A stretch of 64,000 nucleotides of DNA from Spinellus fusiger (lineage: Eukaryota; Mucoromycota; Mucoromycetes; Mucorales; Phycomycetaceae): positions 1 through 64,000 of the forward strand of contig JALLLS010000043.1 of the NCBI GenBank assembly GCA_025094145.1. Direction: 5' to 3'. The notes under the pieces are model-generated. The model worked only from the letters and a program-made list of their open reading frames with translations, had not been told where the DNA came from and ran no database searches. How positions within the stretch are numbered: position 1 is the stretch's first letter; each line of letters begins with the position of its first letter. Both the position numbers and the translations under genes were made by a program. This document shows positions 58,773-64,000 of this stretch, one piece after another.

Positions 58773-58861
58773 CTTCAAGTCACGCAAGCAGTCCGAAAAT
58801 TATTTCTGAAAAAAAGCAAAAATCGAATAGCCCTTTTGTTCTCAATTCAACTTAGACAATC
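58773..58861. promoter_or_regulatory. Bidirectional promoter of UTP4 and the divergent gene
   Basis: Only 89 bp separate the two start codons. The stretch contains an A-tract (tgaaaaaaagcaaaaatcg) and no obvious TATA box, as is common for paired ribosome-biogenesis promoters. Function is inferred from position. Confidence 0.45.
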
Positions 58862-61440
58862 ATGGAAGTGCACCGTTGTCGTTTTGTAGAGTACCAACCT
58901 GCAGCTATCAATGCACTCGACTTCACACCCCACACATTCCAAAAAACCCGATTAGCTGTGGGAAGAGCCAACGGAAATATCGAGATTTGGGATCCTTCTC
59001 ACCGTTACCGTCTGGAAAAGACGATTCCTGGTGGCAAAGATCTCTCTGTAGAGAGTCTTGTATGGGCACATCAGTCAGTGATTGTGGACGAAGACATGGA
59101 CAATTCACCAGAAGAAATAGAACGGGAGTTAGAGCAACTGCTCTCTCAGCCACCACGCCTGTTTTCATCCGGGTTGAATCCTTATATTGTAGAATGGAAT
59201 ACAACATCACTGACAGCCAAAGTGAGATTGATATACATATTTTCAAACTATTTCTCTGACACCCTTCTCTATTTCTTTTTCTTGTCACTATAGAAATCAG
59301 TGGATTCGAATGGTGGTGCTGTTTGGTGTTTAGCCGTGAATAATACAGGCACAAGACTAGCAGCTGCGTGTGAAGATGGGTGCATTCGGTTGTTTGATAT
59401 TGCTGATGATCGTCTTGAATATATCCGTAGTTTTGAAGCACAAAAAGGTAAGCCAGTTATACACTATGGTATTGATGTGTTGAGGTAGGCCGTATTCTAT
59501 CGGTGGCATGGTCGCCTGAGGACACCTTTATTGTTTCTGGTGGGTCCGATAGTTCTCTTCGTACATGGAATGTGGCTACAGGAAGAGCAACCCAACGTAT
59601 GACTGTCAACAAAATCAAAAAAGAACACACACTTGTATGGTCTGTGGTAGTATTGAAGAATAATACCGTGGTATCTGGAGATTCACTAGGAAATCTGATG
59701 TTCTGGAATGCTGAGAATGGTTCATTAATGCAGTGCCATAAAGCACACGGAGCAGATATCTTGTCTGTAGTAGCCTCAAGTGATGGAGATCAAGTCTTTT
59801 CAGCAGGTGTGGATCGTAAACTGACATCGTACCGAAGACTACAGCCTAACCAGAGAAAGGGCAGTAAGAGTTCAACAGAAGGCAGTTGGGTCAATATTGG
59901 AAGTCGTCGATACCATTGGCACGATATCCGTGCACTTGCTATTGATGACAGACCCACAGTCAATTCTATTGTTTCTGGAGGAGTGGATATTGAACTGGTA
60001 GCATGTCCTGCTGCTGAATTTCCACAGCTTATTCAGAACAGATTGCCTCCGTTCCCCCACAAAGATCTTATTTCACTATCAAAGTCAAAAAAGCTGATTC
60101 TGTCTACTCTCTTCAACTCCCTCTCTTTATGGAAGCTTGGCAAAGGTAATGTGCTGTGTGGATAGTGCACTGGAGTATCATTTAGGCTCATTCTTTATAT
60201 TTATATATATACATACTAGCCACACCCATTGATAGCTCTACTTCTTACCGTCATGCACTACCTCAGATGCTAGAACCTCACCAAAGAGTACTGGACATTC
60301 AGTTGAAGCCTGATTGCAACATCACCTCAAGCGCACTATCAGAGAACGCAAAATGGATTGCTGTAGCTGACACAGAGAGTGTCCGCCTTTTTAGAGTCTC
60401 TGAATCCGTAAGTTGCTAAATGAGATGGCTATGGGTCCTTACCTTTCTTTTTCTTTTTCTTTCCCTTTTTTCTTTATTTTTTAAATAGGAGACTTCAGAC
60501 AGACTTAATGTGAAGAAAGTTCGATCTTTTGAAGTAGCATTGAATGAATATCTTCAATTGAACAACATAGCTGCAGGCGCACACCACGTCTTATTCACAC
60601 CAGAATCCGATAAATTGGTGATTGTTACTGTAGAATCCTGGATTCTTGTCATTGATCTTGTCAGCTGGGAAGAAGGATGCTTTGAATTCCTCCGAGAATT
60701 TGGACACCACCGAGGACTCAACAGCAAGGAAAGTAGCCTACAAGATGCCACTGTAGCCACTGTTATCTCACTGGCAGTCAGTGCTGATGGTCAATGGCTT
60801 GCTACTGCCGACGATGATAACCGTATTCATGTATTTAATTTAGACAGCTTAATGGTAAGTGTTCATAAGGATGCCTTTCAGAACCATAAAAACAAAAGAC
60901 TAAAAAAAAAGGAACCTATACCACTAGCATCATTTCAAACTTCCTAGATCCTCCATTCCACACACAGCACTTTCGTTCAATGACTTCCGCCCCAACGAAC
61001 TTTGCGTTAGTCAGGCCACTAACGAGTTTTATATCTACAATGTAGAACAAAAGCAATTGACACTTTGGTCTAAATTACATGCTGACCAGCCTGATGATAA
61101 ACTGCTTGAGCAACGTGATAGAATCCGTGGTATGACTTATAACCCTGCTCACAAAGACAAGATGATTCTTTATGGAAGCACCTTTTTATGTCAGGCAGAT
61201 CTAAATGTTACAAGCAAGACAGAGAACAAACAGCAGAAGCGTAAACACGATCAAGACAAGAACGAACAGAAGAAGACATCCGACAAGGTGGCATCCGAGA
61301 CAAATATTGTTCACAAATATCAACAGATTCTGTACTGTGGGTTTATTGATCATCATTCCATGGTGATGATTGAGCGACCAAAATTCAGTGTATTAGAGAA
61401 CCTGCCGCCATCCTACTACAAGGCACAGTTTGGTACCTAA
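58862..61440 (+). CDS. UTP4: U3 snoRNA-associated protein Utp4 (cirhin-type WD40 protein)
   Basis: Six exons (58862-59221, 59294-59447, 59489-60145, 60220-60407, 60489-60854, 60928-61440), all GT-AG and in phase, give 745 residues. The start matches the family: MEVHRCRFVEYQPAAINALD, then LAVGRANGNIEIWDPSHRYR. WD-type repeats recur: AVWCLAVNNTGTRLAAACED, ILSVAWSPEDTFIVSGGSDS, ADILSVVASSDGDQVFSAGV and VISLAVSADGQWLATADDDN. The C-terminal block includes SFNDFRPNELCVSQATNEFY and a Lys-rich insert before PPSYYKAQFGT. Utp4 belongs to the t-UTP/UtpA subcomplex that loads early on nascent pre-rRNA in the nucleolus. The acceptor at 60927 was chosen because it alone continues the family's LPRSSIPHTALSF segment in phase. 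Confidence 0.93.
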
Positions 61441-61508: not shown

Positions 61509-62574
61509 TTAGTTGATAATAGCAAAGAGTTCAGTTACAAACACATGGTCTCCTTGTTCATATGCTGTTTTTCCTTCTTCATCACGTAAAGAAGTATCAC
61601 AGCCCTGTTGATGTAATAGTCTGGCAGTCTCAAATTGCTCAGAAATGTAGGCTGATAAGAGACATGTTACTATAAAATCACTATTTGGTAGCTTACCATA
61701 ATGCAAGGGGGTTTCTAATGCATTGTTCTATAGAAAGAATGAGTGAGTGAGTGAGTGAGTGAGTGACAGTGTCTACCATCACTTATGGTTACCTGTACAT
61801 TGATATCAGCACCAAGATCGATCAACATACGTGCCATATCAGTATAGCCACGATCGCATGCATGATGAAGAGGAGTCAATCCCTTTCGATATATCAATCA
61901 TAGGTACATGGAAGAATGGAAGAAAGAAAAAGAGTTTTCCGTTGAGTGGCCTTGGTGAATGGCTGACATTTTACCTCTTCATCTTTGCTATTGACTGATT
62001 GCTTAAACTCTTTTATCTGCTCACGTACTTTATCCAAGTTGTTGGTACGTGTGAAGCCAAACAGATCCTCCTCATACACTTCTTCTTCATTCTGGGCCAA
62101 TGAACTCACACAAGCACCCAATCCATGGATTTCCTATGTATATATCCTCAGTACAGCCATAACAACAAGCACTGTACCTCTTCTTTGCTTTGCTGATAGG
62201 CATACTCACCTTGACAAGACCATCCAACCCCAAGGGATTCTACAAGGGCAATGTATTGGGTTTTGGCGTCCTCTCCTGGAATTCCCTTGGCGGATTGCCA
62301 GGCATCCCACTTTGCTCTATTTACAAATTCAAACAGACCTGGTTTGGGTGTAGTGCAGTCGCCAACAATCACTTGTTTGAATAAGGCATAGAGCTACACT
62401 TGACGTTGGTACATTTCTCTGGGTGTCTTTGTGTGTGTGTGTGTGGGTGTGTATGTGTATATATATCAGACTACCTGCCTTTAACTTGTTATCATTGGAC
62501 ACTTTGATTCCTTCATGGGTGCTCATATAGATATAGGCTGACTCGAACCAATCATCAAGTTGTGTAGATGCCAT
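61509..62574 (-). CDS. Acyl-CoA-binding protein with ankyrin repeats (ACBD6-like)
   Basis: Six exons (62574-62479, 62393-62178, 62133-61975, 61882-61793, 61727-61697, 61651-61509) give 244 residues. An N-terminal acyl-CoA-binding domain has LDDWFESAYIY, KLYALFKQVIVGDCTTPKPG, WDAWQSAKGIPGEDAKTQYI and VESLGVGW. An acidic linker follows, then two or three ankyrin repeats (GLTPLHHACDRGYTDMARML, ETPLHYG, TARLLHQQGCDTSLRDEEGK). This order is that of ACBD6, a cytosolic carrier of long-chain acyl-CoA. The first intron must start with GC (AAG/GCAGGT) to keep LKLYALFKQ in frame; all others are GT-AG. It converges with UTP4, whose stop lies 68 bp away. Confidence 0.9.
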
Positions 62575-62698
62575 GGTGGAATGAAGAAAAACGGCAATCC
62601 AGGAAAAGAAGGACACTCCGCTATACTCTTGACCATAAGCCACTGAGGGTTGCTTATGTTTGTTCTGCTATTGTTGACTGTAGCTGGTCTACACACCA
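62575..62698. promoter_or_regulatory. Short upstream region of the ACBD6-like gene
   Basis: About 120 bp between the ACBD6-like start codon and the terminus of TIR element 3. The element has inserted in, or sits immediately beyond, this gene's promoter. Confidence 0.35.
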
Positions 62699-64000
62699 GG
62701 AGGTCTTTAGGATATAAAAGGAAATAGTCGAAATACAATTGTTTAGAAATGACATGGATTTGAAAAGGAGCAAAAATAAATTAAGATGTATTCATGTTAG
62801 TTTTTAAATAAAGATTATTATGTAGATTTACCTGTAAATATCTGAATCCCGGAGGAAACCACTTTTAATGTGGCGATATATAATATGAATACGAATAAGA
62901 ATATCTATTCTTATGTGACTGTATAGATACCCTTTGATGCATTCACATCTCTGTTCTAAACAATTCCGCAACTTTGGCAAGCGTGGATAGTGTTGAAATT
63001 CACTAATACCTCAGTGAGGATATTTGTGTTGCAAGTATGGCAGATCTTGAGAATAAAAAAAGAAAACAAAATAGAGTAACTGTTAAAAGAGCATTTTATA
63101 TTGAGTGAGAGGTCAATCATGCTTACCCTCGATGTAAAGAACTCATCGACATCAACCAGAAGAAGATCACCACTCTTTTGTCTCTTTTTCAATGATTGAT
63201 ATAATATTCTTGTCAAACCAACACGATGGCCTTTGAACTTGACAGCATCCTTTCCTTTCATTCCTGTGCCATAGGCAATGGCTGGCAGCTTGGTAGGAGC
63301 GTACCCCAATCATTTTAGGTGCCAATACCCCTTTTCAATAATAAAATAGTAGTAAGAATAATTAGTTCGAGATGTATTAATGTACTCTCTATGTATGTCG
63401 TATTACCCTTGCACTGGCACCTTCTTGCCTTTGTAATGGATTCACTGGGTTTATTATAGTAAAAAAATATACAATAGAAACTGACCAACATGTAAGACAT
63501 AATAAACATACACAAATACTTACCAGATCACAACTGTTGGTTTATATGCCAGACAAAAACAAACAAGTTAAAGAGGGTAGAAGTTATGAAGAACAACAGA
63601 CAGTGTGTTTGACATGTATTAGTATCCGAACAGAAGAGAACAAAACTAAATTTCACAATTCATTTGCTTAATCAGAACTACCAAAGTAATGCAGACTACA
63701 ACAACATTTTAAAAAGAAAAGAATTCCTTAAAGAACAGTTGCCTAGTTACCCGTTGTGATCAACTCGTGTGTTGTGTCCCTGTTCATCTACCCTCTTTGA
63801 TTTCCCTAGACTAGCCTTTTTACTAATACTCTATTTTGTCTTCACTGCTAGAGACTCAAACATCTATACATTTATCTCTCTAATGGCCCTGTTGATAACT
63901 ACAGTGCCCTTTATTACAGAATAAAGGATATATTTTACAAAGTCACATAGTATAGATCTTGAGGCTACTTTTATATATTTTTAAGCTATAAGGATCAAAG
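62699..64000. mobile_element. TIR element 3 carrying a Fanzor/TnpB-like gene, runs off the window
   Basis: The left terminus CTACACACCAGG at 62699 continues into GTCTTTAGGATATAAAAGG, matching the left ends of elements 1 and 2. A minus-strand nuclease gene follows with its 3' end toward this terminus. Farther right, 63720-63925 matches element 4 (8655-8870, inverted), including GTTGCCTAGTTACC and GTTGATAACTACAGTGCCC. The right terminus lies outside the window, so the size is unknown but at least 1.3 kb. Confidence 0.65.
62911..63560 (-). pseudogene. Fanzor/TnpB-like RNA-guided nuclease, C-terminal half
   Basis: The minus strand encodes YKPTVVIW (near 63540, GTAAGT donor), then GYAPTKLPAIAYGTG, GKDAVKFKGHRVGLTRILYQ and LLLVDVDEFFTSR, followed by a GT-AG intron (63127-63053). 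After the intron comes ICHTCNTN, then HACQSCGIV, a TAG, and NRDVNASKG to a second stop at 62911-62913. DE(F/Y)xTS, a CxxC...CxxC zinc ribbon and NRDxNA form the signature of TnpB/Fanzor C-termini, where the final Asp is the third RuvC catalytic residue. The TAG sits exactly where relatives have Trp (VWNRD), so one base change (TGG to TAG) cut off the catalytic Asp. The junction upstream of GYAPTK has no good acceptor, so that region is damaged too. N-terminal parts were not found. An alternative label would be a domesticated TnpB-like protein. Confidence 0.7.

Follow-up and report, generated by a model that had tools for sequence, protein, structure and literature searches.

A degenerate Fanzor1 fragment within one copy of a large, mostly non-autonomous family of TIR elements in Spinellus fusiger

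A degenerate C-terminal part of a Fanzor1 gene was found on the minus strand at the end of the window, that is, the 64,000-nt stretch of DNA from the Mucorales fungus Spinellus fusiger that was analyzed. It lies inside a member of a Tc1/mariner-like family, large and mostly non-autonomous, whose elements have terminal inverted repeats (TIRs) and TA ends. We put the probability of this reading, together with an account in which copies would have been mobilized in trans and retained through Fanzor guidance, at roughly 0.85.

Results

Identification of a Fanzor1 C-terminus

The features of the window copy are listed in Table 1. The motif order from which a Fanzor/TnpB-like nuclease had originally been predicted (DEFFTSR, CHTC...CQSC, a TAG and NRDVNAS on the minus strand) was borne out at the predicted positions when the sequence was read, with DEFFTSR in the RuvC-II exon. 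The gene had also been expected to contain an intron, and an 81-nt stretch with GT..AG ends probably represents it; at this site homologue P0004 has extra residues, and its spliced counterpart P0002 has none.

Table 1. Features of the window copy and its surroundings (positions in the window)
Feature	Position	Strand	Basis
Acyl-CoA-binding protein gene with ankyrin repeats	61509..62574	minus	Pfam PF00887 and Ank families; ATG
Flank after right end, would-be guide if an omega-RNA is transcribed across the right end	62670..62689	minus	analogy with SpuFz1 and SfAV Fanzor
Window part of TIR element (whole element contig 62690-65747, 3.06 kb)	62690..64000	minus	blastn alignment to copies elsewhere in the genome
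Right terminal inverted repeat, TACACACCAGGAG on the plus strand, outermost TA	62690..62702	minus	shared end of aligned copies
Right-terminal non-coding block, where an omega-RNA scaffold would lie	62690..62764	minus	conservation
3′ module common to the window element and S. fusiger Fanzor loci keeping RuvC-I or the part just after it	62690..63434	minus	blastn
RuvC-III remnant NRDVNASKGIYTVT followed by a stop, after the TAG	62911..62955	minus	translation
In-frame TAG ahead of the RuvC-III aspartate	62956..62958	minus	common to a group of 10 sampled copies including the window copy
Zinc ribbon exon, CHTC-x17-CQSCGIV	62959..63045	minus	Pfam PF07282 jointly with RuvC-II exon, 28.4 bits
Inferred intron, 81 nt, GTAAGC...CAAG, GT..AG ends, in frame, stop-free	63046..63126	minus	sequence and homologues
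Fanzor exon piece with RuvC-II, ...LLLVDVDEFFTSR	63127..63309	minus	translation and profile alignment
Interior, no protein homology to Fanzor or a transposase detected	63435..64000	minus	homology comparison

Profile searches, which had been proposed as a check, upheld the Fanzor label. The 61-aa piece was matched by all 150 scored candidates (of 595, the window copy included), the weakest with an E-value of 1.2e-22. Against Pfam PF07282 (TNB; cut-off 26.3 bits), the unspliced frame stayed under the cut-off with 14.7 bits, the spliced C-terminus reached 28.4 bits and a stop-free sibling 49.4 bits. Because every scored candidate matched the 61-aa piece and the spliced piece scored above the cut-off, the similarity is not due to chance.

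For comparison with proteins of known structure, a profile was built from one sibling and 20 homologues. It matched the solved Fanzor1 proteins SpuFz1 (E 7.8e-8), PpFz1 (6.2e-6) and GtFz1 (9.8e-5), as well as LaTranC (2.6e-10), mimivirus Fanzor2 (2e-8) and several Cas12 and TnpB proteins. The better E-values of LaTranC and the mimivirus Fanzor2 would suit a captured TnpB or Fanzor2 remnant of IS607 type, but the RPxxFxR tail at the C-terminus is included in the alignments with SpuFz1 and PpFz1, TIRs and TA ends delimit the element, and the close relatives that carry names are Mucorales proteins. A remnant of this kind is therefore improbable, and Fanzor1 is the preferred assignment.

In the profile alignment, the Glu of DEF, which had been proposed as the second catalytic acid, fell on E541 of SpuFz1 and the Asp of NRD on D606. 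From the Glu of DEY to the Asp of NRD, 65 residues were counted by hand on the SpuFz1 alignment, and SpuFz1 E541 and D606, likewise 65 residues apart, coordinate metal (PMC10432273). The equal spacing indicates that the Glu of DEF (minus-strand codon 63142-63144) is the expected alternative RuvC-II residue and a candidate alternative catalytic Glu. The ribbon part of a published regular expression, ExxxxxxCxxCx(12,18)CxxCx(4,8)D (PMC10711439), was found in an intact-tailed sibling, and in the window copy the alternative RuvC-II Glu precedes the first CxxC by six residues (E-FFTSRI-CHTC), in agreement with that paper. The Fanzor1 order of RuvC-II, TNB ribbon and RuvC-III Asp was also present, with the Asp of the window copy lying beyond the stop. 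Structure prediction, in which a RuvC fold with the ribbon ahead of its last motif was looked for, returned a model of poor quality. The viral contig IMGVR_UViG_3300033519_000155 of IMG/VR (L033) encodes a sequence weakly related to the Fanzor C-terminus, at 35% over residues 63-110.

Loss of RuvC-I from the window copy

Fanzor homology in the window copy begins only at about 63434. By homology comparison, RuvC-I and everything N-terminal of it are missing: the RuvC-I part of the Spinellus sequences P0075, where it reads CGVDLGRKHIF, and P0001 had no match in the window copy, and the DPG motif of RuvC-I, which appears as DLG, DPD or DPE among family members, was absent. The window element was compared by blastn with 16 records representing 15 places at which RuvC-I or the part directly following it is retained (L037 and L058 being one place), and it aligned mainly over its last 745 bp; two of the 16 records matched it in parts only. 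Upstream of the 3′ module, the interior showed some resemblance to DNA close to the C140 Fanzor locus (72% over 204 columns).

The zinc ribbon had been described as intact. Its cysteines are, but the protein as a whole is not. Since RuvC-I is missing, the feature is to be regarded as a Fanzor-derived fragment and not as a functional Fanzor, so that the Fanzor part of the original prediction holds and the nuclease part, in view of the missing RuvC-I and the stop, does not. Judged by its sequence, the window copy is a dead fragment without DNA cutting ability, ordinary debris.

Ends, copy number and length classes of the element

A 1.2-kb element with ends at 62699 and 63925 had been proposed. 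By blastn, the right end lies at 62690 instead, 63925 is internal, and the left end is contig position 65747, 1747 bases past the window end; the proposed element is merely part of one of 3.06 kb. Alignments of the window copy with copies elsewhere in the genome stop at 62690 on one side and, for those long enough to reach it, at 65747 on the other. Each end of the family copies is an inverted repeat of TACACACCAGGAG that has TA outermost, as in Tc1/mariner-type TIRs, and the left repeat of the window copy is degenerate. A target duplication of TA is putative, both ends finishing in TA. The left module of the element has no recognizable coding content and also occurs inverted in L027, L040 and L042.

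The element had been described as lying next to a host gene promoter; its right end lies about 115 bp upstream of the start codon (62574) of the acyl-CoA-binding protein gene. An intron-containing WD40 protein gene was also seen on the plus strand (about 58856-61440).

Right ends numbered 589 genome-wide with a 23-mer and 582 with a 27-mer, and left ends 550 with a 23-mer (up to 2 mismatches allowed; reversed-pattern controls 0). From 100 listed exact right ends, 14 copies spread over contigs were sampled. Fanzor C-terminal sequence was present in 12 of them; two of the 14 retained just 37-53 bp of the right end. The first exon was present in nine of the 12, with a frame break in seven and a stop in two, and missing in the other three. 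None of the 12 was open through both exons.

The RuvC-I motif itself was covered at 18 places (hand count among 51 matches of the RuvC-I region). Five RuvC-I-bearing loci were read by eye as open-frame lists, introns not being modeled; four had broken last-exon frames and C140 lacked two ribbon cysteines. No fully open Fanzor was found among these five loci and the 12 right-end copies, and a present-day active Fanzor source in S. fusiger is unproven.

Thirty pairs of ends were spaced at 262-284 bp (3), 842-1041 bp (9), 1374-1400 bp (7), 1923-2683 bp (10) and 3421 bp (1). The class of 1374-1400 bp is tight and that of 1923-2683 bp broad.

Apparent spread of broken copies

Among 28 copies, 13 carry the stop ahead of RuvC-III, as do 4 of the 12 right-end copies. 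A tree of 39 copies placed ten of those with the stop, the window copy among them, in one group (support 85/89); the shared stop is moderately supported. The stop label needs six changes on this tree, indicating that it arose more than once. Already broken copies seem to have been copied onward to new places, and this multiplication points to mobilization in trans. Matches to DDE_3 are common in the genome (174 reported), and by eye none of those listed falls inside the 30 paired elements, so no transposase with TACACACCAGGAG TIRs was found among them. In a separate observation, one copy of the Fanzor element was seen to harbor an insertion at L013:5840-7528, a Tc1/mariner element about 1.67 kb long whose TIR is TACACTATTTTCACTTATTATTGTCGC and of which 77 exact ends were located genome-wide.

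Some copies are mosaic. L030 and L031 were 99.3% identical over 1833 nt to the right end and 87.7% identical upstream, and their right flanks differ; L009 and the window copy shared 97.9% identity over 2094 nt, then 86%. Such sharp identity steps suggest recombination or gene conversion between copies.

A further explanation would be that selection maintains a useful product of the window copy, a C-terminal protein made up of RuvC-II and the zinc ribbon that might act, for example, as a regulator. Such a protein is favored by a set of 28 copies, most of them chosen for protein similarity, in which the first exon varied most at third positions and dN/dS was 0.25-0.47. However, picking copies by protein similarity favors low dN, and the low ratios in this set are attributed to how the copies were chosen. 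In the 12 copies picked by right end, the ratios in the real frame were 0.58 and 0.45 for the two exons, compared with 0.475-0.945 for off-frame and non-coding controls in the same copies; one exon thus lay inside the control range and the other just below it. Intron divergence was not above that of the exons in the 28 copies and lay between those of the two exons in the 12. With none of these 12 open through both exons, a selected product is very improbable, and decay of the Fanzor1 gene remains the preferred reading.

A base preference in the left flanks

Flanks were taken from the first 100 of 183 left and the first 100 of 218 right matches, with patterns that demanded a non-T letter eight bases outside. 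The base ahead of TA was C at 76 of the 100 listed exact left ends and, mirrored (G), at 41 of the 100 right ends (Fisher p 8e-7), and the two bases ahead of TA were TC at 46 and 12 of them, respectively (Fisher p 1.5e-7). The window background for C before TA was 18%, and right flanks therefore also prefer G. Among the left flanks, T was found at 54% in the next position, and 99 distinct 8-base flanks occurred among 100. The left-flank C was present in both listed copies of 262-284 bp; the shortest paired copies (262 bp up) were judged by length, their sequence unread. As in ghost elements, both ends and the left-flank motif are thus retained while the gene is lost or broken.

These preferences may be due to the transposase, with no role for Fanzor, either through an asymmetric target preference or through a flanking base carried with the left end. 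The excess of G in the right flanks shows that some symmetric preference exists, and a base carried along with the left end would be left-specific. A carried base would, however, be expected to be near-fixed like the TIR, unlike the C, the T and the diverse flanks observed. Moreover, in a transposase-bearing Tc1 family of the same genome, C was found at 3 of 77 exact ends and A was the commonest base before TA (50/77); these ends share one pattern, with an outer non-T letter, and were pooled. We give the transposase explanation slightly less than even odds.

Immediately outside the left repeat, complete Fanzor elements and ghosts of S. punctatus alike have CA, with CATA as the TAM (PMC10432273). 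By analogy with this case, (T)CTA is a candidate TAM of the ancestral Fanzor1 of Spinellus. It is conceivable, although less likely than not, that the left flanks of several hundred broken Fanzor1 elements preserve the (T)CTA TAM of a Fanzor1 acting in trans on the family, that guided repair, beyond transposition, shaped the surviving insertions, and that the mosaic copies are traces of repair.

The right end and a putative omega-RNA

With a pairwise difference of 0.06-0.09, the right-terminal non-coding block ranks with the best conserved stretches of the 3′ module. No conserved RNA structure was detected at the right end (z -0.15 to -1.75), nor a covarying one, and a search of this end against Rfam gave no match. 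We infer by analogy with SpuFz1 and the SfAV Fanzor (PMC10432273, PMC10711439) that the flank just outside would serve as the omega-RNA guide. The omega-RNA region of Spu-1 is reported to measure 75-80 nt (PMC10432273), longer than the right ends of 37-53 bp retained by the two shortest sampled copies.

Discussion

The following course of events would account for the family. A TA-specific transposase would have moved copies in trans. As long as an intact Fanzor1 existed, an RNA transcribed across the right end and on into the flank may have directed it to the empty donor site, which it would have cut beside the left-flank motif (T)CTA, and repair after the cut would have restored the element. 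Broken or deleted copies with both ends kept could have shared in this restoration as 'ghost' elements.

The family resembles Spu-1/SpuFz1 in being a TIR element with putative TA duplications, a Fanzor1 and conserved bases outside the left TIR, and it resembles the Spu-1 ghosts in having many copies without a working gene but with both ends kept (PMC10432273). For S. punctatus, 42 Fanzor loci (19 full-length), 134 ghosts and a tested omega-RNA are described (PMC10432273, PMC3627910). Unlike Spu-1, Spinellus has 582 right ends, most sampled copies carry a broken gene tail, and no open Fanzor was found among the copies read; the flank motif also differs, being (T)C before TA in Spinellus and CA in Spu-1 (PMC10432273).

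Elements described by Bao and Jurka 2013 (PMC3627910) are likewise Fanzor1-only, with mariner TIRs and TA duplications, the latter putative in Spinellus. Their Fanzor1 hosts include Mucorales (Mucor, Rhizopus, Phycomyces), the order of Spinellus, but the Mucorales families given there are MuDr-like or unclassified with other duplications, and a table of fungi in that paper does not list Spinellus. PpFz1 of Parasitella parasitica (PDB 9cf0, PMC11423790) is another Mucorales Fanzor1 with the same C-terminal layout; in contrast to it, the Spinellus ribbon is shorter, the sequence is distant and the window copy is broken. The TAM of PpFz1 is ATN (PMC11423790).

Earlier papers thus already describe Fanzor1 both from Mucorales and from TIR elements that have TA duplications, as well as ghost copies (PMC3627910, PMC10432273, PMC11423790). 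The titles and abstracts of the literature searched on Fanzor, Mucorales, ghosts and Spinellus held no report of the Spinellus family or of its flank motif. The Spinellus family therefore appears to be new, as do its copy number and flank motif, while the kind of element itself is known.

The role of Fanzor for its transposon is unsettled, and help in trans has been discussed as a possibility (PMC10432273). With about 580 right ends, and flanks from 100 sites a side, such a role becomes testable by counting: Fanzor-guided retention predicts a left-only motif equal to the TAM, even in copies without a working gene. If the pattern is true, Spinellus would provide a second and larger case in a distant fungus, the chytrid case having had fewer copies (PMC10432273).
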